Program-made: the position numbers and the translations under genes
Notes under the pieces: generated by a model
Seen by the model: the letters and a program-made list of their open reading frames with translations, nothing else
Told to the model about the DNA's origin: nothing
Database searches by the model: none
In this document: positions 4,230 through 20,345 of the stretch, piece after piece
Numbering within the stretch: position 1 is the stretch's first letter
Layout of the letters: each line of letters starts with the position of its first letter
From: a virus
Strand: one strand, 5' to 3'
DNA: 20,578 nt
Virus record (IMG/VR): IMGVR_UViG_3300017991_000442
Location: 1-20,578 of that record

Positions 4230-4493
4230 TTAATTACCCTCTTTTTTTGGAAAGGCTTTTTCTTCAATTAATTTTCTTTTATGTTCAGTATTTAATTCAT
4301 CAAGAAATTCTTCAATATCTTTTATACAAGAAAGGGAAAATAGAGTATTAGTTTCAGGGAAAAAACAATATTGTCTCCATTGAGAATACCATTTAATTTC
4401 TCCTAAGTAAACATTAGTTTCTTTATTACTTACATTATATACTTGTGTTTTACTTTTCTTTTCAACTTCAAAATATTTTAACCATTTAGACAT
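4230..4493 (-). CDS. Conserved phage-type hypothetical protein, 87 aa
   Basis: The product has a recognisable core, LGEIKWYSQWRQYCFFPETNTLFS (about residues 30-53), followed by a helix (CIKDIEEFLDELN, 56-68). I have met this IKWy-WRqYcFfP arrangement in many phage and bacterial small proteins of unknown role, so the gene is real even though the function is not known. Its start at 4493 forms TAATG with the polymerase stop, and the last polymerase codons carry AAGGAGG. This strict coupling hints at co-expression with the polymerase. Confidence 0.65.
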   Translation of the reverse strand: MSKWLKYFEVEKKSKTQVYNVSNKETNVYLGEIKWYSQWRQYCFFPETNTLFSLSCIKDIEEFLDELNTEHKRKLIEEKAFPKKEGN

Positions 4494-7400
4494 TATAAAA
4501 CCTCCTTAACATCCCAATTTAAACTTTCGAAAATTGTATCTAGCTTCATCAAGATGTTTCGTTGAATAATCAATGACCAATCGACCAGCCCTCTGTGAAC
4601 ATGGTCAAATACTTCATCACTAAACGCTATAACATCTTTAGGTTTATCTTTTCTATGTAATACACTTACTTCTTTACTATCGAATTCTTTATTGTATTGT
4701 TTTTTAGCGTATTCTAATCCTTCTTTTCTAGTTAAATTTTTATCTAAAACTATATCTTGATAACTAATTCCATCTTTTTCGAAATCATTTTTAATCTTAA
4801 TAATGGTTTTTGTATCGCTCTCTTCTTGAGGTTTAACATAAATATAATAAAAACTCTCTCCAATTTTAACCGAAAATTCTGGAGTATTCTCCAAAGCTCT
4901 AACAAAAATAGGTTTATTTTTATAGTTTACAGGGTCTTTAGCTAAACGACAAGGAAAGGCAATATCCTGTAAAGGAGCATTTTTTATATCTTTTTGCTGT
5001 AGTTTAATCCATTTGAAAATCTCTTCTTTAGGAGTATCATTATGTATTTTATTAAATAATTCTTCTTGAAATTTAACCATAAATTTAGTGCTATTTCCAG
5101 ACCAATAAGCTTTTCCGTTTCTCATAACAAAAATAGTATGATAAGGTTCAATATCTACACAATAAATTTTTCCTTTATATTTTTTAGTTTTTATTTTTTT
5201 TGGATTTATTTTGAAATATTTATTGGAACTTTCTGAAATTTGATAATGAATTCCTCCTATATTTGCCCAATGATTTACAATCCATTTTTTCTTAAATTCT
5301 ATTTTTCTTTCTAATATTGTAGCCGATTTGCCTATTTTGGTTATCAATTCTTGCAAATCTAATGCCATTTGTTTACTTGAAGTAGAAAAAATTCGTTGTT
5401 TAGTTTTACCTTTATACCATCCATCTCCTAAACAATAAGTATAAAGAAAATGTTCAATAGTATGAGGAAATGCTTTTTTAATATAATTAGGTATAATTTT
5501 ATTTTTAGCATTATTTCCATATTTTTTTAATTCATAAGCAATTAATTTATTTTTTATTTGAAATCCTCTTTCGTTTTCATAAAAATAAACAGATAAGTCT
5601 TTTAAAAGTTCTTTTATTAGTTTCTTTTTTTGGCTATTTTTATTAGACTGACCAATAAAAATTTCATATATTTTTTTCTTTTCATTAATATAAACACATC
5701 CTTCGCTTAAATACCAGCCCATAAATTGAAACCAAGCATCTATAGGAAATTGTATTTCTTTATATTGTCTATTTACTATTCCAGACAAAATAAAATAATT
5801 TCCTAAATGTTGTCCATTCCATTCATAATATTTTTGAGAAGTAAAATTAGTATTAGAATTTTTAATTTCAGTTATCGTTTTAAATTTATTTCTATCTGTA
5901 TGTGGAGACTGATAAGTTCTTTGTAAAAATTTATGATTCGGAGTTACACAGAAATCTATAGATTGGTCAGAATAAGTAAACATTTTTCCTTCGTAATCTT
6001 CTTTAATTATATTTTTAATAGGATAATAATGGGATATATTTGTTTCGGGATTCATACTTAAAACTTTATCTTCATAAGTTAAATTTTTAAAATATTTCCA
6101 ACCCGAATCTGTTAAAATCAAAGTTTTTCCGTCAAAACAATCTTTACGCTTACTTTCAACCCCTTTAGTTTCTCGTTCACCATTATCTTTGATAGCATCG
6201 TATCGGCATTTTGTAAGGAGGATAAGAGATTTAAAATAACCCTGATACTCAAATTCTACATTAACTTTATCTTTACCAAATTTTTTACCCCATTCTTGAA
6301 CGATTTCATTTAATAAAGAAGAAATATCTTCCGTATTATTGTTTATCATAATACCATCTGTATCAACATAAACTACTTCATAACCTTTTTCTTTTAGTTT
6401 ATCTATTGTATATTTTAAAACATCTCTTGCTAAAAAAGTAGTAGCACTTGCTACATTTTTGTTATAAAGCCTAAAGAAACGATTACCAAATACTCCATAA
6501 GCGGAATTAACCACACTTTTAATAGCATCATACATTTTTTTTGTATCTTTATATTCTTCGCTTTCATGAGATAAAGTTGACAACTTTTTCTTGATGTCAA
6601 CTTTTAAAGTTGTCAACTTGTTGACAACAGTAGGTAATAAAGCTTTAGAATTTTGTTTAAAATAAGTTTCGTTGATTTTAATAGGAGTATAATCTTTTTC
6701 TGCTGTTAAAGGAGCAGTTAATAAAATATTCGCAGGGTCAAGACAAAAATCGCTTATCATAGTAGGATAACAACTTGAAAGGTCATACACCCCTACGTCT
6801 TTTAAATGACCTTCTCGAAATACCTCTCTAAATGCTCCTTCATAATCTTCTTTTTCTAATAAAGTTCCTCTTTCTTCAGCAGGTTTCATCGGAAGAATTA
6901 TGTTTTGATTTTTTGCTTCTTGTAAAAGTAACATATCCAGCACTCGGCTATTAAATAACATGTCCTCCCATTCTACTTTACTTAATCTTCTAATCGCATC
7001 GAAATAATCTATTAAATGAAATTTTCTTTCTAATTTTTCTAATCGTCTTACGTCATTTTGATTCTTTTTTATAAGGTCATCAGAAATTTGATTAAAATCT
7101 ACTTTTTTATTTGCTTCATCATTAAGATGTTTTTGAGCAATGTAATCGAGGGTGTATTGTTTTTCTCTATTTAATGTAATTTTTTTAAACCAACTATTTC
7201 CTGTAATAAATACTTTACCATTTCTTCGGCATACTACAGTTCCGTTATCTGTAGAAATACACCATACTTTACCTTTATATTGAATTTTTTCGTATTTAGC
7301 TAATTTAGGATAATATCGTAATCTCTGCTTTGACCCGATTATAATATAATTATTATCTTTATTAGATTTGCTTAAATTAGTATTATATCCGCATTTAAAA

Positions 7401-8779
7401 GCTAATTCTTGAAATTGGTTAGCTCTTTCGTTATTTTCTTCATAATAAATAAACCCATTTTTACGAATATGTCCATCTCCTTTAATCATTTCTTTTAAAA
7501 GAATATTTAATTGATTTTTATCTGCATTTAAAATATATCGAGGTAATAATTTATTTATTCCTATAATATCAAAATAATTTTTGATTTGACTTTTTTTATT
7601 AGATAAATAAAATTGAGTTTGAGTGTATTTTTTATATTCATAATTATATTTTTTATATTTTATATTTAAATATTTTAGAATATTTTCAATTTCTTCTATA
7701 TATTGGTTACATTGTGTAATTTTAATTCCTTCAAATTTGCCATTACACATCATTATATTACCTTCAGTAATTATCCATGCTAATAATTTTAATTCTTCAT
7801 TTGATAATTTACATGTTATACCATCGAAACCATTTTTACTATAGTTAAATAAATAGCATTGAGAGGGTAAGTTATCTGGTATGTCAAATTTAATATTTAA
7901 AGGTTTCCCTTTTCCATCCGCAGTTTGATATAATTCTCTATGATTAGGAGTAATTAATCTATCTGTTCTTTTATTTTTTAAATATCTCATTTTACCATTA
8001 AAATTATAGATATATTTTTCTTTGATAGGCATTATTTCTAATTGTTGTGAATTAATATTATATGTAATAGCATTTTTTATATCTTTTATTTCTTTATATT
8101 TTTTCCAACCATCTTCTGTTAATATTTCAGTATTTTGGTCAACACATAAATAATCGATAATACTTATTCCTGCTGGATAAAAAACTTGACCATCTCCATA
8201 TCTAGTTTGTCCAATTATACTTAATTCTTTGGCAAAATCAGGATACCGATTATATAAATAATTATAATCAAATTGCACATTCCAAGAAAGCCAAAGGTCG
8301 AATTTTTCTTCTTTCATGAAGCAAATAAAAGCATTAATCATCTCATATTCTGAAGCGTATTTATCAAGTCTAAAAGTCATTAAAGTTTTTCTTTCGGAAT
8401 TATAAACAGTAATTAAAGAAATAGGAAATTTAGCTTCTTCTACATTAGGCATTTCATTTGCTAGAACTTCAATATCTATAAAAGCGTATTTAATCATTGT
8501 TTTTTCTATTTTATCTACTTTATCTATTAAATACCTTTTAACAAAAAGAATATCAGCTTCGCAAGCATTTAAAGTTCTTTGTTTAGGAACATCACAAGGA
8601 TTAGATACTAAAACTTTACGCAAACTTTCGCCTGTATATGCTTTAAATTGCCCTACAGGGTCTTTCTCATAAAAATAAGGAAAGAAATCCTTAATCTCAT
8701 GAGTAATAAGCACTCCGTCTATATCTCTCTCGAATAAATAAAGAGTGCGAAAATTATTTGCTATATTTACTAAACGCAT
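4493..8779 (-). CDS. polB: Family B DNA polymerase with 3'-5' exonuclease, interrupted by two inteins
   Basis: The 1428-residue precursor becomes a 762-residue enzyme after removal of two inteins (residues 212-528 and 881-1229). Exonuclease: Exo I FIDIE (100-104), Exo II SWNVQFD (165-171), and Exo III as F587-x3-D591. Polymerase: motif A DLSSCYPTMISDF (666-678), motif B IKSVVNSAYGVFG (753-765), motif C YVDTDG (804-809), and KCRY (857-860) as the KxY element, followed by KGVESKRKD. All catalytic acids are present, so both activities should be intact. It is the replicative polymerase of this element. The start at 8779 has AGGGA ahead of it. The downstream gene is coupled by TAATG. No terminal-protein-priming insertions were identified, so it probably uses the primase encoded at 13562..15436. 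Confidence 0.95.
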   Translation of the reverse strand: MRLVNIANNFRTLYLFERDIDGVLITHEIKDFFPYFYEKDPVGQFKAYTGESLRKVLVSNPCDVPKQRTLNACEADILFVKRYLIDKVDKIEKTMIKYAFIDIEVLANEMPNVEEAKFPISLITVYNSERKTLMTFRLDKYASEYEMINAFICFMKEEKFDLWLSWNVQFDYNYLYNRYPDFAKELSIIGQTRYGDGQVFYPAGISIIDYLCVDQNTEILTEDGWKKYKEIKDIKNAITYNINSQQLEIMPIKEKYIYNFNGKMRYLKNKRTDRLITPNHRELYQTADGKGKPLNIKFDIPDNLPSQCYLFNYSKNGFDGITCKLSNEELKLLAWIITEGNIMMCNGKFEGIKITQCNQYIEEIENILKYLNIKYKKYNYEYKKYTQTQFYLSNKKSQIKNYFDIIGINKLLPRYILNADKNQLNILLKEMIKGDGHIRKNGFIYYEENNERANQFQELAFKCGYNTNLSKSNKDNNYIIIGSKQRLRYYPKLAKYEKIQYKGKVWCISTDNGTVVCRRNGKVFITGNSWFKKITLNREKQYTLDYIAQKHLNDEANKKVDFNQISDDLIKKNQNDVRRLEKLERKFHLIDYFDAIRRLSKVEWEDMLFNSRVLDMLLLQEAKNQNIILPMKPAEERGTLLEKEDYEGAFREVFREGHLKDVGVYDLSSCYPTMISDFCLDPANILLTAPLTAEKDYTPIKINETYFKQNSKALLPTVVNKLTTLKVDIKKKLSTLSHESEEYKDTKKMYDAIKSVVNSAYGVFGNRFFRLYNKNVASATTFLARDVLKYTIDKLKEKGYEVVYVDTDGIMINNNTEDISSLLNEIVQEWGKKFGKDKVNVEFEYQGYFKSLILLTKCRYDAIKDNGERETKGVESKRKDCFDGKTLILTDSGWKYFKNLTYEDKVLSMNPETNISHYYPIKNIIKEDYEGKMFTYSDQSIDFCVTPNHKFLQRTYQSPHTDRNKFKTITEIKNSNTNFTSQKYYEWNGQHLGNYFILSGIVNRQYKEIQFPIDAWFQFMGWYLSEGCVYINEKKKIYEIFIGQSNKNSQKKKLIKELLKDLSVYFYENERGFQIKNKLIAYELKKYGNNAKNKIIPNYIKKAFPHTIEHFLYTYCLGDGWYKGKTKQRIFSTSSKQMALDLQELITKIGKSATILERKIEFKKKWIVNHWANIGGIHYQISESSNKYFKINPKKIKTKKYKGKIYCVDIEPYHTIFVMRNGKAYWSGNSTKFMVKFQEELFNKIHNDTPKEEIFKWIKLQQKDIKNAPLQDIAFPCRLAKDPVNYKNKPIFVRALENTPEFSVKIGESFYYIYVKPQEESDTKTIIKIKNDFEKDGISYQDIVLDKNLTRKEGLEYAKKQYNKEFDSKEVSVLHRKDKPKDVIAFSDEVFDHVHRGLVDWSLIIQRNILMKLDTIFESLNWDVKEVL
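5093..6139 (-). mobile_element. Intein 2 (349 aa) with LAGLIDADG-type endonuclease, in the polymerase thumb boundary
   Basis: Precursor residues 881-1229. It begins C881-FDGKTLILTDSGW (block A), has VTPNHKF (946-951 region, block B) and ends NGKAYWSGN with N1229, followed by Ser+1. The endonuclease part has two LAGLIDADG-like helices, FMGWYLSEGC (1019-1028) and FLYTYCLGDGW (1111-1121), each with an acidic residue. Joining the exteins restores KGVESKRKD-STKF, the normal polymerase sequence after the KxY motif. The residue before the final Asn is Gly instead of the usual His. Nucleophile, block B Thr/His and terminal Asn are all present, so splicing looks possible. Confidence 0.9.
6573..6628. 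repeat. Cluster of GTTGACAAC-type inverted repeats inside the polymerase gene
   Basis: GTTGACAAC at 6576-6584, its reverse complement GTTGTCAAC at 6609-6617, GTTGACAAC at 6620-6628, and the partial copy TGTCAAC at 6595-6601. Nested palindromes result: AAAGTTG/CAACTTT at 6573-6587, CAACTTT/AAAGTTG at 6598-6612, and GTTGTCAA/TTGACAAC (6609-6616 and 6621-6628) with a four-base loop. The region encodes polymerase residues about 718-736 (LTTLKV and KLSTL). It may be a protein-binding or origin-like site, or a by-product of a repeated peptide. Confidence 0.6.
7196..8146 (-). mobile_element. Intein 1 (317 aa) with LAGLIDADG-type endonuclease, in the exonuclease domain
   Basis: Precursor residues 212-528. 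It starts C212-VDQNTEILTEDGW (block A), has LITPNHREL (275-283, block B) and ends NGKVFITGN with N528, followed by Ser+1. LAGLIDADG helices are LLAWIITEGN (332-341) and LLKEMIKGDGH (427-437). Flanking exteins join as IIDYL-SWFKKI, between Exo II and Exo III. Like intein 2 it has Gly before the terminal Asn. The two inteins share block layout and the RNGKxFxxGN end but differ clearly in the middle, so they are relatives and not recent duplicates. Confidence 0.9.
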
Positions 8780-8780
8780 T

Positions 8781-9044
8781 TTATTTCCCTGTTATTGTTA
8801 ATTTTTCTGGTATAATGTTTGAATAAAATTTTAAAGATTTTCTTTTAATTTCTTTACAGCAATCATTATAAATTTGAAATAAAATTTGTCTTAATTCGTA
8901 TTGATTTTTAACTTCTAGAATTCGATAATATGCTAATAGATAGCGACAATGAGCATAACCATCTCCATATTGCACAATCCAATCTCCATAATTATCTTCT
9001 TTATAACCAAATTCTTCTAAAAATATTTTATATTCTAATTTCAT
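8781..9044 (-). CDS. Hypothetical protein, 87 aa, directly before the polymerase
   Basis: The product is rich in Tyr, Glu and Lys. The first half (FGYKEDNYGDWIVQYGDGYAH) looks like short strands. The second (about residues 40-72) is helical, with two adjacent Cys at the CCKEIKRK segment. Nothing is recognised. The stop lies one base before the polymerase start, and its final codons carry the AGGGA used by the polymerase, so expression of the two is linked. Its own start at 9044 has only a weak AAAGA site and relies on the preceding gene. Confidence 0.5.
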   Translation of the reverse strand: MKLEYKIFLEEFGYKEDNYGDWIVQYGDGYAHCRYLLAYYRILEVKNQYELRQILFQIYNDCCKEIKRKSLKFYSNIIPEKLTITGK

Positions 9045-9045
9045 T

Positions 9046-9252
9046 CTAATCTTTTTCTGTTATTTTTGTTAGATATTCTTCTATAAATTTTAATCCTACA
9101 CAATAATAAAAATTCATAATTCCATCTGATAATAAAATTTGATGAACGTATGTTTTATCGACTGAATCAAATTGTTGATATTTGTCATTAAAAGTAGTTT
9201 CAACTGCTTTATCAAAAATTTTTCTCATTTCTTCGAAAGATATTTTTTTCAT
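9046..9252 (-). CDS. Hypothetical helical protein, 68 aa
   Basis: Starts at 9252, sharing a base with the cupin stop (TAATG). The sequence is largely helical: KISFEEMRKIFDKAVETTF (3-21), then VHQILLSDGIMNFYYCVGLKFIEEYL (36-61). No domain or catalytic motif can be named. Position between the cupin and polymerase genes, with both junctions tight, supports it as an expressed gene. Confidence 0.5.
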   Translation of the reverse strand: MKKISFEEMRKIFDKAVETTFNDKYQQFDSVDKTYVHQILLSDGIMNFYYCVGLKFIEEYLTKITEKD

Positions 9253-9653
9253 TATTCTAACATTCCTTTTTTACGAAGTTGGTCTTCTGTATATTCTTTT
9301 CCATCTATAAATCGCCCACCTTGTTTAATTCTATTAATATCATCAGGTCTAATAAATCCTTGCTCAACATAAGCACATTCAATAACAATAGAATCTTCTA
9401 AAGCTACAAATCTGTGCATTGTTGGAGGACGGACTTCAAAGACATCATTCTTTTTTAAAGTTTTTCTTCCGAATTCGGTATCAATTCTAATCTTACCAGA
9501 AACAACAATAAATTTATTAATTTTTGATTCATGATTATGTCGAGAAGAAAATCCTCCTCTACGAAGATAAAGCAAATCTATCTCTGTTTCATTAGAAAGA
9601 AGCATCCTGCGACGTTCACCCCAAACTTTAAAAATATTTGAATTATCAGGCAT
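9252..9653 (-). CDS. Cupin-domain protein, 133 aa
   Basis: A single cupin barrel of the mannose-6-phosphate-isomerase/WbuC-like type. Motif 1 is GGFSSRHNHESKINKFIVVSG (33-53) with H39 and H41. The Glu usual four or five residues later is not there (Asn/Lys instead). Motif 2 runs from KTLKKNDVFEV to RPPTMHRFVAL with P76/P77 and H80. The three histidines could hold a metal. Cupins bind sugars or small acids or act as isomerases, epimerases or dioxygenases, and I cannot choose among them. TAATG coupling joins it to the upstream helical gene at 9653..10108. The presence of a small-molecule protein inside the replication operon is odd. Confidence 0.75.
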   Translation of the reverse strand: MPDNSNIFKVWGERRRMLLSNETEIDLLYLRRGGFSSRHNHESKINKFIVVSGKIRIDTEFGRKTLKKNDVFEVRPPTMHRFVALEDSIVIECAYVEQGFIRPDDINRIKQGGRFIDGKEYTEDQLRKKGMLE

Positions 9654-10108
9654 TATTTTTCTTCTTTCCCTGAAAGTTTCATTTCTTCTTGAATCTGTTT
9701 TAAAATTGATTGAATACTTGACATCGCACTTCTACAAGCTTCGACATAACCTTCTATATAATTTCTTATTCTTCTATAATCCGAAACTTCGGCACTTGCT
9801 TGTTTTTCTGCTGAAGCAGATACAAATTTACCGCCAGCATTATCTGTTTCTTGTTTTATTCTATTATAGGCTCGAACTTCTCGATTCTTTTTCTCAGTTA
9901 TAGCAACAGAATAAGCAGTGTTTAATCGCATAAAAATACCAGTCAATTCCATTAATCCTTGTTTTGCCATTTCTGGATTTGTAGCTTGATTATCTCGAAG
10001 TAATTCAGCCCATTCATCAACTTTAGCTAATTCAGTTTTAAGGTCTTCTAAAACCAAATCTAAATTCTGCTCATCTTGAAAAAGTTTTTCGATTTCTTTT
10101 ATTCTCAT
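9653..10108 (-). CDS. Helical/coiled-coil protein, 151 aa, unknown role
   Basis: An almost wholly helical protein, heavily charged. Residues 1-42 and 85-150 form long amphipathic helices, and the middle contains NPEMAKQGLMELTGIFMRLNTAYSVA. A less biased Ala/Ser-rich part (SASAEKQASAEVSDYRRIRNY, about 97-117) resembles the DNA-contacting helix pairs of phage recombination accessory proteins, but no family can be named. Start at 10108 follows AGGAGGCAATAA, an excellent site overlapping the preceding stop. Confidence 0.55.
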   Translation of the reverse strand: MRIKEIEKLFQDEQNLDLVLEDLKTELAKVDEWAELLRDNQATNPEMAKQGLMELTGIFMRLNTAYSVAITEKKNREVRAYNRIKQETDNAGGKFVSASAEKQASAEVSDYRRIRNYIEGYVEACRSAMSSIQSILKQIQEEMKLSGKEEK

Positions 10109-12909: not shown

Positions 12910-13569
12910 TTATAATATACCCATATTTTTTAATTCTAATTCCATTAATAGTTTAATTTTTATATTAGGATATTTTTCTTTAAACTTATTAAATCTTCTT
13001 TTTGTATTATCTCTCCAATAACCTTTAATTTCTATATATTCATTAGTTTTAGGTAAATAGAAATCTGGTGTATAAGTTATATCTCCTAAATAAAATCTTT
13101 TAGGTTCATATTGCCATTTAATTTTATTTTTCTCTAAATATTTAGCATATAGTAGTTCCCAAGTTGAACGAAAACAAATATTTTTATACCAAAACCTTTT
13201 ACCATGTTTCGCTTTTTTACCCCACATGGGATTATTTTTGCCTTTTAAATTTTGATGATATTTACTATTACGGATTTTATTTATAGTTTCTTTTTTAAGA
13301 TGTTTTTTCCAATTTGGATTATTTTTGCCTTTAAATTTTTTCGAAGTTTTTTTATATTTATAAGCACATTTTTTACATCTTTTATGGTTATAATAATAAG
13401 CATGAATAGATAATAATTTACCGCAATCTATACAATAAGATTTTTGCAATGTTTTGCCATGTTTATAATTAGCATTTTTAATCCCTGTTCGTAATTTAGA
13501 ATGACAAGAAATACAAGCTATAGCTTGTATTGTTTTTAATATTTTTCCACAATATTTACATTTATTCAT
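12910..13569 (-). CDS. Vsr-fold homing endonuclease with zinc-ribbon and NUMOD3 repeats
   Basis: 219 residues from the ATG at 13569. A frame from 13593 exists but adds eight residues ahead of the ribbon without support. Zinc ribbons are C4/C7 with C19/C22 and C46/C49 with C65/C68. NUMOD3-like repeats follow: FKGKNNPNWK (79-88) and LKGKNNPMWGKKAKHG (108-123). The nuclease part runs from FRSTWELLYAKYL (133-145, E138) to YTPDFYLP (166-173, D169) and YIEIKGYW (178-185, E180/K182), which resembles the very-short-patch-repair fold of I-Bth0305I-type homing enzymes. It lies between the primase-helicase and RuvC-like genes, overlapping the former by eight bases. It should promote its own spread by cleaving an empty site. 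Confidence 0.8.
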   Translation of the reverse strand: MNKCKYCGKILKTIQAIACISCHSKLRTGIKNANYKHGKTLQKSYCIDCGKLLSIHAYYYNHKRCKKCAYKYKKTSKKFKGKNNPNWKKHLKKETINKIRNSKYHQNLKGKNNPMWGKKAKHGKRFWYKNICFRSTWELLYAKYLEKNKIKWQYEPKRFYLGDITYTPDFYLPKTNEYIEIKGYWRDNTKRRFNKFKEKYPNIKIKLLMELELKNMGIL

Positions 13570-15436
13570 TGTTCTTTTCTTTTTGTATTTCATCAGCTCT
13601 TTCTAATATTTTAGTTTCCCAATTATATATACATGGAACAGAATAAGTTTTTATTTTGATTTTAGGGTCTCTAATAGGTTTGATTATAAATTGACCAGAT
13701 TCTCCAGTTTCTTCGTCATATATATATTTAGCTCCTAAAGCTGGAAATTGATTTACTAAATTAGGAGAAAACCAACTTCCATCTTCTTTTAGTTGCATAA
13801 AAACAATTAAAATTCCATTTGTTCTTAATAATTGTTCAACAAATTTCATAAATAATTTATCAACTTTAGCAAAATCTTTAGGGCATAACCAATCTATAAT
13901 AGTTATTGCCGAATCTTCTAATTCAATTTGTTCGGGGTCAACACACCAATCATATTTAAAATCTCCTTCTTTTAATCCTAATTGCAATGCTATTTCTGCA
14001 AATCTTGAAGTCGGTTCTAAAGATAAATAATAAGGAGTTATGCCTTCTTCTACTAATTTTTTAATAATATTTAAAGCTATATGGGTTTTGCCGAATTTAT
14101 TTTGACTTCCTATTAAAATTAAATCTTTATATTTAAAATTAGCTATATCATAAAAATAAGGCATTTTAAAATTAATAGCCTTACCTACTTGAATTAATTC
14201 TGTTTTCCAATTAGCTCTTTTTTTAATTTTATAAGAACTTCTACCTGTTTTTAAAATATAACCTTCTTTAATTAAATAAGTTAAAACTTTATCTATTCTT
14301 TTTTTGTCTTCTCCTCTATTAGTTCCTACAATAGTCATAGCTATTTCGTTTCTACTTGCTTCTTCTACATCGTCTTTTAAATATTTTAAAACCTCATGAG
14401 CTAACTCTTCATTATCAAATTTTGTATAGTGTTCAAGTTTTCGAAGCATAGCATTAACTTCTTTTTGTGGTAAAGGAGATTTATTATGTCTATTTAATAC
14501 GTTAAGCACATACTCAGTTTGACGAATATTTAACCCCTTCCTCAAAACGCCACCTAATTTCACTAATGAAACATTACGAGAACCTTCGTCAAATAATTCC
14601 ATTTTAAAATCTTCAGTTTCGATTTCTTCTTTAAGTTGTTCGCTTTGAGTTTTACGAGGTATAGTAATTTTATTTAATAATAATTTTTTTAATTCGTTAG
14701 GCATTTTAATAATGGGATTTAATTCTTCTATTATTCTTTCTTTGCCTTCTATTTTACTTGGATAAATAACAACTTGACCACCATCATTTTCAATATCAAT
14801 TTTATAATTATCTATTCTGGTCTTAGGTAATTCGGGCTCATATTGATAAAAAAGATGAAATCCTTTTGTTGTAGTTTGTATTAAAGTATTCCCCATAACT
14901 TTTTTAATATTTTCAGGAATAGGTTTTTGGTCAATATCTATAACAGTTATTCCCGATTTTTTTCCACATTTCATCCCAAGATTAAGTCCATCAGTAAGCC
15001 ATTGAAGCCATTCATTTTTATCTGTATGAGTTTTAGTTGTCCAATTTTTTTCTACTGGCACTTTAGAATTACCTGCAACAGGCACTAAATCAAATTTATT
15101 TTCAACATAATAATTTAAATACTTTTCCAAATCTTCTTCGTCTTTTTTTGTAATGACTTTAACATCAAATAATTTCCTAACTATTTGATAAACCTCTTCC
15201 TCAGTATAATCTTTATTTTCTAATTTTTTAACTACATCTACAATATTATAAAGTCTATTTATTTTCTTTAAAGGTTGACAATTATGGCAATTTAACCCAT
15301 AACTTCCTGGCACAACTTGAGCACTTTTAGCAGTGCCACAAAAAGGACAATCAAAAGCATCTAAAGGTTTTTTAACTTTATAATTAAATTTTTGTAAATA
15401 AGGAATAATATAACTCTCTATAATGTGTTTATACAT
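13562..15436 (-). CDS. Primase-polymerase / helicase fusion (AEP-type Prim-Pol with RecA-fold ATPase)
   Basis: 624 residues. A zinc ribbon comes first: C30/C33 and C50/C53. The archaeo-eukaryotic primase-type Prim-Pol core follows: LNLGMKCGKKSGITVIDID (151-169, D167/D169), TTKGFHLFYQY (189-199, H194) and DGGQVVIYPSKI (218-229). A helical PriCT-like part (286-340) and a winged helix (about 360-405) come next. The C-terminal ATPase has Walker A LIGSQNKFGKT (441-451) and Walker B TIIDWL (512-517), like DnaB/RadA-family phage helicases. It should lay primers and unwind DNA for the family B polymerase. Start at 15436 has AGAGGAGAAAAA. No motif is missing. I do not give a gene symbol since the domain order is not that of DnaG or gp4. 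Confidence 0.85.
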   Translation of the reverse strand: MYKHIIESYIIPYLQKFNYKVKKPLDAFDCPFCGTAKSAQVVPGSYGLNCHNCQPLKKINRLYNIVDVVKKLENKDYTEEEVYQIVRKLFDVKVITKKDEEDLEKYLNYYVENKFDLVPVAGNSKVPVEKNWTTKTHTDKNEWLQWLTDGLNLGMKCGKKSGITVIDIDQKPIPENIKKVMGNTLIQTTTKGFHLFYQYEPELPKTRIDNYKIDIENDGGQVVIYPSKIEGKERIIEELNPIIKMPNELKKLLLNKITIPRKTQSEQLKEEIETEDFKMELFDEGSRNVSLVKLGGVLRKGLNIRQTEYVLNVLNRHNKSPLPQKEVNAMLRKLEHYTKFDNEELAHEVLKYLKDDVEEASRNEIAMTIVGTNRGEDKKRIDKVLTYLIKEGYILKTGRSSYKIKKRANWKTELIQVGKAINFKMPYFYDIANFKYKDLILIGSQNKFGKTHIALNIIKKLVEEGITPYYLSLEPTSRFAEIALQLGLKEGDFKYDWCVDPEQIELEDSAITIIDWLCPKDFAKVDKLFMKFVEQLLRTNGILIVFMQLKEDGSWFSPNLVNQFPALGAKYIYDEETGESGQFIIKPIRDPKIKIKTYSVPCIYNWETKILERADEIQKEKNNE

Positions 15437-15790: not shown

Positions 15791-16153
15791 TTATAGCCTC
15801 CGTCTAATTCGATTTGGCATTATAGAATTGATTGTATATAAAATAATATTCGGTCTTTTGAATCCAAGTTTATACCTCTTTAAATAAGGATAATAACGAT
15901 AAGTTACAAAAAATAAAAATATCATACAACCTAATGCTAAAGCATTTATAGTAAATAAATATAAATCTTTAATTATTATAGAATAAGTAATTCTTACAAT
16001 ATCATTTAATATAGCACAATTTGTAAATTTCCTACTCATTCCTTTAGCAGTGCCGACTTCGATTATCTTTTTGGCTTGAAACGAATATTTCCAAGAATCG
16101 AATATACCAGTAATTATAAGTAAAATTCCTATTATTGTTTTTAAATTAAGCAT
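15791..16153 (-). CDS. SemiSWEET-like/PQ-loop membrane protein with altered PQ motif, 120 aa
   Basis: Three membrane helices: residues 4-20, 43-61 and 65-86. Between the first two lies SFQAKKIIEVGTAKGMS (24-40), corresponding to the PQ-loop signature (PQ...k..saeGlS) with F25-Q26 in place of Pro-Gln. An Asn (N70) in helix three fits the family. SemiSWEETs are half-transporters that dimerise to move sugars or other small solutes. A basic tail (about 87-120) extends beyond the usual length. The start at 16153 overlaps the homing-endonuclease stop and has no clear AGGAG. It is one of two such proteins in the window. Alternative: an unrelated three-helix membrane protein. Confidence 0.55.
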   Translation of the reverse strand: MLNLKTIIGILLIITGIFDSWKYSFQAKKIIEVGTAKGMSRKFTNCAILNDIVRITYSIIIKDLYLFTINALALGCMIFLFFVTYRYYPYLKRYKLGFKRPNIILYTINSIMPNRIRRRL

Positions 16154-17305: not shown

Positions 17306-17878
17306 TTAATCCCAAAATGCTCCATAATATTTAACAAATAATTTCATACCCTCATTAAATTTCTTCATTTGCTTATCAAATTTTTCTTTTGTATTTGTTT
17401 TAGTATAGTCGCAAGCTTTTTTATAAGCTTTAAATCCTTTAATAATCTTTTGTAAAATTCTTTTCCATTCTCTTAAACTTCTTACTTTTTTAGTATAAGG
17501 ATAACCATGAATATATTTTTTCAAATGACTCATTCCTCCAATTATTATATCTGTAAGATAATCATCAAAATCCCAAGTATCTTCATCAGCCCATCCTCTT
17601 TTTCCTCTTTGAATAAAACTTTTAATCTTTAAAGGAATAGAAGATACATAATTCCAAAAATATCTATACCAATAACTTTCTAAATAATCTAGAATTGTCC
17701 AATCTTTTTTCATGTTATTTAGATAATCTTTAACTTCTTCAATTGAACTAAATTGCTTATCTTTTTTAATAGATTTCTTTTTTCGTTTAAAAAATTTACT
17801 TAATCCTTTTAAAGGATTACCAATACATGCACCTATTTCTAAATAATCCATTCTACTTTTTTTAATACGTTTTCCCAT
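17306..17878 (-). CDS. Conserved phage protein of unknown function, 190 aa
   Basis: ATG at 17878 has GGAGGAAACAAA before it. An earlier ATG at 17899 would add seven residues within the deaminase gene. The product has a basic N-terminus, then RGKRGWADEDTWDFDDYLTDIIIGGMSHLKKY-HGYP in the middle and a C-terminal helix with IIKGFKAYKK. I have met this combination, (R)GW/Y-x-D-x-D-x-W-x-hD-x-YL then GYP and a final W-x-x-hL-x-x-I-x-x-GF, in many phages and related sequences, always without a known function. It overlaps the deaminase by 17 bases and so is coupled to it. Confidence 0.65.
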   Translation of the reverse strand: MGKRIKKSRMDYLEIGACIGNPLKGLSKFFKRKKKSIKKDKQFSSIEEVKDYLNNMKKDWTILDYLESYWYRYFWNYVSSIPLKIKSFIQRGKRGWADEDTWDFDDYLTDIIIGGMSHLKKYIHGYPYTKKVRSLREWKRILQKIIKGFKAYKKACDYTKTNTKEKFDKQMKKFNEGMKLFVKYYGAFWD

Positions 17879-18329
17879 TTTGTTTCCTCCAGATTTCAAA
17901 TAATTGTAATCCTTTCCCCCGATAAAAATTCCCTACTATTAAAATTCCTAAATGAGCTAATTTAATTAAAGTTTGATTGCTAACAAGCATTTCCCGAAAT
18001 CCGTATTCAGAAGCATCGCCAATAGTCGTAGCCGAAACAATAACATCAATATGAGCCCAATGAATAGCAGTGAGGCACATCGGACAGGGCTCAGTTGACG
18101 AATAAATATAGCATCCTTCTAAATTAATTGTTTTGAGTTTTTTACAAGCTTTTTTAATAGCATTAATTTCGGCATGAGCTGTAGGGTCGTTATCTTGTAA
18201 TACTGTATTATGAGCAGAAGCTATTACTTTCCTATTTTTAACTATTATAGCTCCAAAAGGAGATTGACCTTTTTTAATCCCTCTTTTTGCTTCTTTAAAT
18301 GCTAAATTTATAAATTTATCACTTTTCAT
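17862..18329 (-). CDS. Nucleoside/nucleobase deaminase, guanine-deaminase-like, 155 aa
   Basis: Zinc-dependent cytidine-deaminase fold. The active site HAE has H52 and E54, and PCPMC supplies C82 and C85. NDPTAHAEINAIKKAC (47-62) and SSTEPCPMCLTAIHWAHIDVIV (77-98) resemble bacterial guanine deaminase (GuaD) more than tRNA adenosine deaminase, and the later GDASEYGF (103-110) also fits. The reaction would be conversion of guanine to xanthine plus ammonia. A different amino-purine or pterin substrate is possible. ATGA overlap with the PQ-loop gene upstream and a 17-base overlap with the next gene place it in a tightly coupled set with two transporters. No signal peptide, so it is cytoplasmic. 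Substrate is inferred, fold is sure. Confidence 0.78.
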   Translation of the reverse strand: MKSDKFINLAFKEAKRGIKKGQSPFGAIIVKNRKVIASAHNTVLQDNDPTAHAEINAIKKACKKLKTINLEGCYIYSSTEPCPMCLTAIHWAHIDVIVSATTIGDASEYGFREMLVSNQTLIKLAHLGILIVGNFYRGKGLQLFEIWRKQNGKTY

Positions 18330-18592
18330 TTTAATCTCCTATATTTTATTACTAAAAAATTAATAATTAATAAATTAATGAACGGAAAGACATGGGCGAT
18401 AACTACTGACCATTGTTTTAATAAAATATTTCCTGTTATAAAAACAACATAAGCAATACAGCAAATTATAAAAAATAATAAGCTAATCCCTTCTGTTCTC
18501 TTGGTGCGAAGTAGATGCCAGATTTGAGGCAAGGTTTCCAGTGTCCAAAGAACGCCAGCTAAAATAATAAGTAAATTAGCAAATTTATGCAT
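18326..18592 (-). CDS. SemiSWEET / PQ-loop transporter, 88 aa
   Basis: Three membrane helices: 5-18, 36-55 and 62-82. The PQ-loop lies at the end of helix one, LETLPQIWHLLRTKRTEGIS (18-37), with P22-Q23, the classic SemiSWEET signature. Length matches the family (about 85-100). The family moves sugars, and relatives (PnuC-type, cystinosin, others) move other small molecules; the cargo here is not visible. Start at 18592, directly after the transporter stop and after AGAGGAATAA. It couples to the deaminase by ATGA. Unlike the second copy at 15791..16153, its PQ motif is intact. Confidence 0.78.
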   Translation of the reverse strand: MHKFANLLIILAGVLWTLETLPQIWHLLRTKRTEGISLLFFIICCIAYVVFITGNILLKQWSVVIAHVFPFINLLIINFLVIKYRRLK

Positions 18593-19765
18593 TTATTCCT
18601 CTTTAAAATATTTAATTACTGGAAAACATAAAAAAGTAGTTATACTGCTTATTGCTATTAAAGGCAAGAAACCTACTTTATCAAATAACCACCCACCTAA
18701 TATCCCTGCTCCAGCTCCTGTTAAATTACTTATAGAAGCCACGATAGCATAAGTTGTGCCTTCGTGTTTTGTTCTAGAAGCTAATTTCATAAATAAAGTC
18801 ATAAGAGGAATATATAATATCATAGCTATTATCCCTCCTATTATAGTATCTAAAATAGCAAACCATTTAATATAATAAAACCAAATTAACCAGGTTGAAA
18901 TTGCTCCTATAATAATACTAGCATAGAGCACTTTTTTAATTGGTAATGCCTTAAAGAATTTATTGTAAAGAATTGTTCCAATTACTGCACTGGCACTTCC
19001 TATGCTTCCTAATAAACCTAAAAATGTTGTTGAAATTTCGTGTTGTTTCATGTAAAACAAAAAAGCTATCCCTAGTCCTGGACTAAACATGCCTAAAAAT
19101 AAAAATAAAGTTAAAACTCTTAATTGTCGGTCTTTAATATATTCTTTTATAGGATTTAGAATTCCTTGTATTATATTTATTTTATTTTTAATTTGAATTT
19201 TAATATCATCCATAAAAATAACAGCACTTAGTATAACTAATTGCACAAAACACATAATTTTAAATATCAAAAAATATCCAAATTTATCAATTAAAAGTCC
19301 ACCTAATATCCCTGTTATTACTGCTCCCAAAGCTCGATAACCTAAAGAAATAATTTGATAATGTTTAGCATCTGAATCTTTTTTACTATGTTCTGCTATT
19401 TTAGCATCTACAACTACATCACGTAAACAATAACCTGTTGTATAAAATATCCCACACAATACTAATAGCCAAAAAGTAGGTTGTTTTAAAATACATAATA
19501 AAAACCATCCAAATAAACTAATTAAACAAGATAAAATAACATAAGGTTTTCGCCTCATTCCAAAAATAGGATAATTATCGCTTATCATACCAAAAACAAT
19601 TTTAACATACCAGGCTATTCCTGCTATAGCACTTATACTTGCTATTTGTGCTACTGTAAAACCTAAAGAATGGTAATACAAAGGAATAGCAAGCCCTACT
19701 AATCCAAGTGCTCCTTGAAAAAAATAAGTTAAAGCAGTAATTATATCTAATTTATTTATTTTCAT
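18593..19765 (-). CDS. MFS transporter of the BT1/folate-biopterin transporter family
   Basis: 390 residues with about 12 membrane helices. Family-specific motifs: YFFQGALGLVGLAIPLYY (14-31), WYVKIVFGMISDNYPIFGMR (52-71) followed by RKPYVILS, and DVVVDAKIAE (116-125), then GGLLIDKFG (155-163). The C-terminal half repeats a shorter form of the last (GGWLFDKVGF). These match BT1/FBT transporters of Leishmania, plants and cyanobacteria, which move folates and pterins, more closely than generic sugar MFS proteins. The exact cargo is inferred. The start lies in the 3' end of the phosphoesterase gene (14-base overlap). A full MFS transporter in a phage-like region is unusual. Confidence 0.75.
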   Translation of the reverse strand: MKINKLDIITALTYFFQGALGLVGLAIPLYYHSLGFTVAQIASISAIAGIAWYVKIVFGMISDNYPIFGMRRKPYVILSCLISLFGWFLLCILKQPTFWLLVLCGIFYTTGYCLRDVVVDAKIAEHSKKDSDAKHYQIISLGYRALGAVITGILGGLLIDKFGYFLIFKIMCFVQLVILSAVIFMDDIKIQIKNKINIIQGILNPIKEYIKDRQLRVLTLFLFLGMFSPGLGIAFLFYMKQHEISTTFLGLLGSIGSASAVIGTILYNKFFKALPIKKVLYASIIIGAISTWLIWFYYIKWFAILDTIIGGIIAMILYIPLMTLFMKLASRTKHEGTTYAIVASISNLTGAGAGILGGWLFDKVGFLPLIAISSITTFLCFPVIKYFKEE

Positions 19766-20345
19766 TTTTTAACCATTTGTTATATCTACTCCAAATTTCA
19801 TCAAAAGTAACTGGTAGAAATTTCCACACATCTACTCCCACATTTATACAATCTGTAAATCCAAATCCTTTTCTTATTCTTTTTATTTCAAAATTATTAT
19901 GCACATGCCCTACTAAATTAATTTTAAATCTTTCATCTGCATGAGCAGGGTCGTGAACCATGTTAATAAGTTGATTGTTTATTTGTATTACTAAACTTAT
20001 GATTTTAGATTTATTTTTATTGTTTCTATCGTGATTTCCTTTTATAAAAATTATATTTCCATTTAATTGTTTTCGATAATAATCAAATACATTTCCTGTA
20101 GGTGCTTCTGAAGATTTATTAAAACAGAAATCTCCAATAACAAATACAGTGTCTTCTTCTTTTACTCTCGAATTCCAATTTTTAATTATTAATTCATCCA
20201 TTTCTTTAGTTCGTATTTTTTCAATATATTTTGAAATCCAATTACCTTTTTCATCTAAATCAGTAGGTTTAAGCATGGGTCTATTAGTGTAGCGTATTAT
20301 GTTACTGTGCCCCATATGCAAATCGCAGGTAAAGAAATATTTCAT
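19752..20345 (-). CDS. Calcineurin-like metallophosphoesterase, 197 aa
   Basis: Motifs in order: TCDLHMGHSNIIRYTNRP (6-23) with D8 and H10, IGDF (70-73) with D72, GNHDR (103-107), MVHDPAH (129-135) with H131, and VGHVHN (145-150). The two-metal site is complete. The CDLHxGHxNIIRYxNRP beginning is typical of stand-alone phage and bacterial phosphoesterases, whose substrate is usually unknown. Start at 20345 has AAGGAGAGATT. It overlaps the transporter gene by 14 bases. It is distinct from the larger helix-turn-helix fusion at 2144..3265. Confidence 0.8.
   Translation of the reverse strand: MKYFFTCDLHMGHSNIIRYTNRPMLKPTDLDEKGNWISKYIEKIRTKEMDELIIKNWNSRVKEEDTVFVIGDFCFNKSSEAPTGNVFDYYRKQLNGNIIFIKGNHDRNNKNKSKIISLVIQINNQLINMVHDPAHADERFKINLVGHVHNNFEIKRIRKGFGFTDCINVGVDVWKFLPVTFDEIWSRYNKWLKNENK

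Follow-up and report, generated by a model that had tools for sequence, protein, structure and literature searches.

A transporter of the major facilitator superfamily and a SemiSWEET-like protein form part of an auxiliary-transport island in uncultured phages

Introduction

Complete secondary transporters are, to our knowledge, rarely carried by phages. The viral record IMGVR_UViG_3300017991_000442 encodes, one after the other, a BT1-type transporter of the major facilitator superfamily (MFS), a small PQ-loop protein and a guanine-deaminase-like enzyme, which raises the question of what these three genes do together in a viral genome. A preliminary description of the DNA read them as one cassette for the import and deamination of a purine- or pterin-like molecule. 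In the following, the window refers to the whole stretch that was analyzed, the 20,578 nucleotides (20.6 kb) of this record, with a GC content of 26.7% and all called genes on the minus strand. Our analysis identifies a module for auxiliary transport that is real and new and is carried by uncultured phages. The idea of a functional cassette of three genes does not hold in the form proposed; the locus is a transport island whose metabolic cargo varies and includes the deaminase. Searches of the literature on phage MFS, SemiSWEET, guanine-deaminase or PnuC auxiliary genes, with most subscription journals outside their coverage, returned no paper on this module.

Identity and origin of the transporter

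The MFS protein matches the Pfam model BT1 (PF03092) with 122.9 bits (cut-off 22), a higher score than that obtained with the generic model MFS_1 (85.1 bits), and no sugar-transporter model scores above BT1. This agrees with the BT1-type assignment made earlier, and a generic sugar MFS was rejected as it is not the best-scoring model. The best NCBIfam model is the curated folate/biopterin family TIGR00788 (fbt), but the window protein reaches 80.5 bits against a cut-off of 216.4, compared with 43-63 bits for the MFS proteins of sibling phages and 102-110 bits for those of Omnitrophota. As the fbt score lies far under the curated cut-off, BT1 similarity does not fix the substrate. An AlphaFold2 (AF2) model with a predicted local distance difference test (pLDDT) value of 79.9 adopts the MFS fold, with query-based template-modeling scores (TMq) of 0.73-0.83 to MFS entries in the PDB, and matches VMAT2, MdfA, NorA and AmpG about equally. 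Two aspartates, Asp115 and Asp119, are invariant across nine aligned phage copies. PHROG matches for the MFS and PQ-loop proteins carry no functional annotation.

Cellular relatives of the transporter are found in the phylum Omnitrophota. When the transporter alignment was run against 85,000 species genomes, a single contig matched, which belongs to an Omnitrophota metagenome-assembled genome (MAG). A genome scan by exact MFS peptides found no relative and tblastn searches of phage and plasmid records with the MFS returned nothing besides two weak Bradyrhizobium matches. In a survey of Omnitrophota, MFS homologues were present in 84 of 285 genomes, the best being 35% identical (E = 6.5e-62). 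Phage MFS proteins occupy three separate places among their Omnitrophota counterparts in a 53-sequence tree: eleven phage sequences form one group (support 100/100), those of the sibling contigs L164 and L185 group with Omnitrophota type-2 transporters (100/100) and the window protein groups with type-1 transporters (100/99). Forcing all phage sequences into a single clade costs 121 log units (p = 4.4e-10 in the approximately unbiased test), and vertical descent of all MFS genes inside the phage clade is rejected by this constrained tree. Judged by this tree, members of the clade took an MFS from Omnitrophota on at least three occasions, two of which placed it at one and the same locus.

The window MFS likely arrived by exchange at an occupied site. 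PrimPol proteins of MFS-bearing siblings are 43-52% identical to the window PrimPol, but identity between their MFS and that of the window drops to 25-28%. Given this contrast and the presence of the same flanking genes in the sibling phage G023, the simplest account is that a second host-derived MFS took the place of an earlier one. Among six phage MFS genes of the main lineage, the ratio of non-synonymous to synonymous substitution rates (dN/dS) is ~0.08-0.24 with dS >1, representing purifying selection.

The deaminase is likewise nested in an Omnitrophota clade (support 97/87 and 100/99, 55% identity) and was gained from this phylum separately from the MFS. Its gene accounts for the majority of the DNA-level matches linking the window to Omnitrophota. 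The placement of both proteins indicates that the host of the phage clade is probably a member of the Omnitrophota. In addition, binning has assigned a contig encoding a PrimPol of the clade (E = 7.8e-214) to an Omnitrophota MAG. Both the MFS and the deaminase are thus cellular metabolic genes of host origin residing in a phage genome, which is what defines auxiliary metabolic genes.

Gene order in sibling phages

The MFS and PQ-loop genes recur side by side in divergent phages while the third gene varies. Scans of viral contigs with each of the three proteins as a single sequence recovered only the same phage. The whole trio has one second copy, in the 44.9-kb IMG/VR contig 3300018080_000270, and because this contig is 99.99% identical to the window across 17.6 kb, the two represent one phage and not independent conservation of the trio. 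The sibling phages G023 (82 kb, locus L053) and G024 (101 kb, locus L054) came to light when viral contigs were scanned with a deaminase alignment and the records so obtained were searched for the gene families. Alignment scans with the transporter, the PQ-loop protein and PrimPol yielded a clade of approximately 30 related contigs, and their loci were gene-mapped.

An MFS gene is present in 14 clade contigs. It is directly followed by the PQ-loop gene in G023 and G024, divergent members of the same clade, as it is in the window phage. The slot after the PQ-loop gene is occupied by the deaminase in the window phage, by KdsA in G024 and by neither in G023. This deaminase belongs to the island in the window phage and was seen beside the MFS in none of the other 13 MFS phages. 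A different short deaminase is encoded elsewhere in G023 and G024 and is absent from the window-phage sequence examined. A gene order unique to this contig, named earlier as grounds against the cassette, is consequently borne out for the trio, which was found only in the window phage, but not for the MFS and PQ-loop genes.

Other partners surround the MFS in further siblings. The KdsA of G024 is full-length, scores 346 bits against TIGR01362 (cut-off 314) and directly follows the MFS and PQ-loop genes (L054 10367-11158); in L171, KdsA (7516-8367) lies two genes after the PQ-loop gene. Phage-borne KdsA, a Kdo-8-phosphate synthase, suggests that the supply of the lipopolysaccharide core sugar is manipulated. 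A PnuC-like half-transporter with three transmembrane (TM) helices comes directly after the MFS in L065 and L165 (32.0 bits against PF04973 with a cut-off of 27.3 in L165, a weak PnuC match in L065). L065, L165 and L168 have a LOG-type gene ahead of the MFS, immediately adjacent in the first two. Overall, a SWEET-fold gene is found directly downstream of the MFS in five of the 14 MFS phages.

The SemiSWEET-like protein

The PQ-loop protein scores 41.8 bits against PF04193 (cut-off 22), contains an LPQ motif at residues 21-23 and matches the SemiSWEET structure 4rng with an E-value of 2.3e-7. The Pfam and structure matches support its PQ-loop/SemiSWEET-like identity; the cut-off of the NCBIfam model SemiSWEET_2 is not reached (40.8 vs 80). 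The pocket positions equivalent to Trp50 and Asn66 of the Escherichia coli SemiSWEET are Phe and His (residue 67) in the window protein. All seven PQ-loop proteins of the clade share this change, with Trp50 replaced by Phe (Tyr in one case) and Asn66 by His, while Omnitrophota and structurally solved SemiSWEETs keep Trp and Asn. In the E. coli protein, the N66A substitution lowers sucrose uptake while W50F leaves it unlowered (PMC4309421). Based on its aligned residues, the protein should be called a SemiSWEET-like protein with an altered pocket. The clade thereby provides a family of SWEET-fold proteins with a predictable pocket change.

A second small PQ-loop-like family of the clade (PQw2, Table 1) has homologues in L164, L165, L168, L176 and L185. 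Its members share an AKGMSRKF-like motif and a C-terminal tail conserved as GFKRPN..LY..NS..PN.IR, possibly representing a new SWEET-fold family.

The deaminase

The third protein scores 97.6 bits against dCMP_cyt_deam_1, above the cut-off, and its zinc site is intact (TAHAE and PCPMC). Its top solved relatives by sequence are the Arabidopsis guanosine deaminase 7dbf (E = 1.5e-29) and bacterial guanine deaminases, with 5jfy, named a deoxycytidine deaminase, close to them in sequence score. Foldseek comparison gives TMq values of 0.86 for 7dbf, 0.84-0.90 for NE0047 and 0.80-0.82 for the TadA structure 1wwr. Sequence and fold comparisons are thus in accord with the guanine/guanosine-deaminase-like fold suggested earlier. 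A TadA identity was rejected based on the NCBIfam equivalog score (65.9 vs a cut-off of 150) and a fold closer to guanine/guanosine deaminases. The protein departs from known motifs with QSPFG in place of GGPFG and GFRE in place of GF(R/D)D. Guanine is the leading substrate candidate for this enzyme, which falls into an uncharacterized Omnitrophota subfamily.

Genomic setting

The window derives from a phage. Its replication genes encode a family-B DNA polymerase with intein signatures, PrimPol, a RecA/UvsX recombinase and a RuvC-like resolvase, and together with the conserved synteny of the clade they support the viral assignment and rule against a prophage or host chromosome fragment. The three open reading frames (ORFs) are present head to tail where they had been described (Table 1). 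The PQ-loop start is the base right after the MFS stop, and the PQ-loop and deaminase genes overlap by 4 bp (ATGA).

Table 1. Features of the window around the transporter gene.
Feature	Position	Strand	Evidence
BT1-type MFS transporter, 390 aa, ~12 TM helices	18593..19765	-	PF03092; AF2 MFS fold; tree
PQ-loop/SemiSWEET-like 3-TM protein, 88 aa	18326..18592	-	PF04193; 4rng match; PQ motif
Zn-dependent nucleobase/nucleoside deaminase, guanine/guanosine-deaminase-like, 155 aa	17862..18329	-	HAE and PCPMC motifs; 7dbf match
Calcineurin-like phosphoesterase, upstream neighbor	19752..20345	-	PHROG 547; many siblings encode a homologue close to the module
Uncharacterized clade-specific protein, 197 aa ('FIQRGKRG')	17306..17899	-	PHROG 11543, 7e-7
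Small 3-TM protein resembling PQ-loop proteins, the second in the window (family PQw2 of the clade, 118-124 aa)	15791..16153	-	MtN3_slv, E = 0.013, below cut-off
PrimPol, marker gene of the clade at the border of the variable island	13562..15436	-	PF09250, 63.4 bits

The adjacency and tight junctions that had suggested a single unit are real, but the trio is not bounded as a unit: the phosphoesterase gene overlaps the MFS gene by 14 bp on the upstream side and the gene of the 197-aa protein overlaps the deaminase gene by up to 38 bp on the downstream side. Tight spacing is found throughout the window, with 24 of 33 neighboring gene pairs overlapping or at most 3 bp apart. No terminator-like sites were found between the genes of the trio and their overlapping neighbors or within the trio. 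The junctions and the absence of a separating terminator fit a single transcript of at least five to six genes rather than a bounded trio. A promoter scan showed no excess relative to shuffled sequences. Homologues of the 197-aa protein are encoded directly after the SWEET-fold gene in L061, L065 and L165 and nearly so in G023.

Several other features of these genomes were observed. The family-B DNA polymerase ORF of the window (4493-8779, 1428 aa) contains LAGLIDADG and intein-splicing signatures, with two inteins discernible by eye. In L053 (10138-11718), a calcineurin-like phosphoesterase, an unusual host gene for an intein, is interrupted by one with a LAGLIDADG endonuclease. A GGDEF diguanylate-cyclase domain (90.3 bits) is encoded at 33279-33818 of G001 (L009 13279-13818), which is the same phage as the window. 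An MgtC-like membrane protein is found near the transporter region in most sibling phages (L053 15527-15988, L054 12177-12614, L064-L067 and L069), that of G024 scoring 99.9 bits against PF02308. The clade also carries an unusual protease load (L053, L054, L059 and L065-L067), comprising ClpP-like, HtrA-like, M50 site-2, M42 aminopeptidase and M16 proteins plus peptide deformylase. In L064, an RtcB-like RNA ligase ORF (8476-9663), recognized by eye, lies just upstream of the transporter. Anti-phage defense models gave weak matches only.

Interpretation of the island

We lean towards an auxiliary-metabolism island of the phage clade in which added carriers move small nutrients and salvage enzymes are carried as cargo, a reading that we hold to be fairly probable. 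During infection, the phage would place its own MFS and a small SWEET-fold carrier into the host membrane, where we infer that they would move small nutrients inward, with assorted salvage enzymes carried on the same putative transcript. The MFS would be a BT1-like, presumably gradient-driven carrier and the PQ-loop protein a homodimer-type facilitator with an altered sugar pocket (Asn to His). The deaminase would turn guanine or a related base or nucleoside into its deaminated form and need not share the solute of the MFS. Repeated independent capture of the MFS from the probable host phylum, combined with purifying selection in the main lineage, strongly indicates that altered solute traffic across the host membrane pays during infection. 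That the captured genes are also retained at a shared location suggests a benefit to these viruses from the movement of some small nutrient.

A number of points weigh against this reading. The window MFS sits on a long branch, the main caveat on its placement, and the selection estimate applies to the MFS of the main lineage, the window MFS having no near relative to compare. Phyla other than Omnitrophota were covered less deeply and may contain closer relatives. The host assignment draws on gene phylogeny and one short binned contig; CRISPR-style DNA matching against 384 Omnitrophota genomes at E 1e-5 gave no convincing hit, the matches falling mostly in the deaminase gene and a conserved stretch near 11.1 kb. 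Finally, a strict partnership of MFS and SWEET-fold genes is not universal, as the remaining nine of the 14 MFS phages have a SWEET-fold gene nearby or none was found.

The genomic context of the host transporters bears on the solute. Type-1 MFS genes of Omnitrophota are part of pgk-tpi-secG-MFS-galT-GH57 clusters in several genomes and of an unrelated housekeeping cluster in others, while type-2 genes are found in the order pgk-tpi-secG-MFS-marC-glgC in most genomes read, with gene names representing our reading of the sequences. This association with glycolysis and glycogen genes points to carbon metabolism, and the presence of KdsA in G024 and L171 agrees with it. LOG, the half-PnuC protein and the deaminase lend nucleobases weak residual support. 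We consider a sugar-type or other carbon solute slightly more likely for the MFS than a nucleobase or pterin.

A more specific module, in which both the MFS and the PQ-loop protein transport a sugar or a sugar acid for energy metabolism or phage-directed glycan synthesis and the deaminase is unrelated, is possible if doubtful. The host gene clusters, the resemblance of the PQ-loop protein to SemiSWEETs and the position of KdsA right after the MFS and PQ-loop genes in G024 and close to the latter in L171 all favor it, but no sugar-MFS profile scores above its cut-off and the sugar-binding Asn is His in all seven clade proteins, at the very site where alanine cut sucrose uptake in E. coli (PMC4309421).

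The three genes could also be unrelated host-derived neighbors brought together by drift in a compact phage genome, with no function in common. Tight spacing everywhere in the window and the variable deaminase slot would be expected in that case. Drift fits poorly with the three captures of the MFS, two of them at one locus, and with the selection that maintains it in the main lineage, or with a SWEET-fold gene directly downstream of it in five contigs, and we regard this explanation as unlikely.

The single pathway proposed in the preliminary description, in which a purine- or pterin-like compound enters through the MFS, with the PQ-loop protein taking part, and is then acted on by the deaminase, supplying nucleotides or clearing a toxic or signaling base, is not supported and we judge it improbable. 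It draws on BT1 and fbt being the best Pfam and NCBIfam models for the MFS, the guanine/guanosine-deaminase-like nature of the enzyme, LOG before the MFS (L065, L165 and L168) and the PnuC-like half-transporter after it (L065 and L165), and a similar deaminase and MFS pair in Acinetobacter. The fbt cut-off is however missed by a wide margin (80.5 vs 216.4), the deaminase was gained separately and is part of the island in one of 14 MFS phages, with KdsA in its place in G024, and no deaminase neighbors the Omnitrophota MFS in the loci read, many of which are carbohydrate clusters. Similarly, we give little credence to a host-derived two-carrier import system, built from an MFS captured at least three times and a SWEET-fold half-transporter with a new pocket, that is tied here to a dedicated deaminase processing the imported base.

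It is likewise improbable that the membrane proteins, alongside HtrA-like, M50 and MgtC genes, alter the host envelope (efflux, membrane potential or superinfection exclusion) instead of taking up nutrients: membrane proteases and MgtC abound in the clade islands and the nearest solved MFS folds are efflux or vesicular carriers (VMAT2, MdfA and NorA), but these fold matches are generic across the superfamily, an MFS from host carbon-metabolism genes fits a nutrient transporter and KdsA, LOG and the deaminase are metabolic cargo.

Beyond the transport island itself, the clade provides host-linked genomes for probable Omnitrophota phages, a phylum with little phage literature among the publications searched.

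Relation to known systems

The window transporter shares its Pfam family and 12-TM MFS architecture with the BT1/folate-biopterin family (PF03092, TIGR00788), which includes kinetoplastid folate transporters and cyanobacterial homologues. It differs from folate/biopterin transporters in scoring far under the fbt cut-off and in originating from an uncharacterized Omnitrophota branch.

Bacterial SemiSWEETs (E. coli, PMC4309421; 4RNG) and the clade PQ-loop proteins have a single 3-TM PQ-loop repeat and a PQ hinge in common. In contrast to the bacterial proteins, those of the clade carry Phe or Tyr for the pocket Trp and His for the pocket Asn, and the SemiSWEET cut-off is missed. A phage SemiSWEET is mentioned in PMC8540626, and PQ-loop genes are likewise phage-borne in Bacillus phage vB_BcoS-136, Geobacillus phage GR1 and Sporosarcina phage Lietuvens. 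These belong to a different sequence clade and have no adjoining MFS in the two loci read. In Geobacillus phage GR1 (OK896991.1, at 8491-9251; L015 3504-4264), the PQ-loop gene overlaps one for a nucleoside 2-deoxyribosyltransferase, with ribonucleotide reductase encoded immediately downstream.

A deaminase gene also adjoins an MFS gene in Acinetobacter, where a TadA-like deaminase is paired with a CynX-like MFS. This pair has another MFS annotation and lacks a PQ-loop gene, and its contig is labeled as phage but reads as bacterial chromosome. The record in question (CAKLQH020000001.1, L012), named Acinetobacter phage MD-2021a, contains a DotU secretion gene and a LysR regulator besides the deaminase and MFS pair.

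Guanine/guanosine deaminases of the cytidine deaminase (CDA) fold, namely Bacillus subtilis GuaD, Arabidopsis GSDA and NE0047, have the HAE/PCxxC zinc site and overall fold in common with the window deaminase. The phage-borne enzyme is set apart from them by its QSPFG and GFRE motifs and by belonging to an Omnitrophota subfamily.

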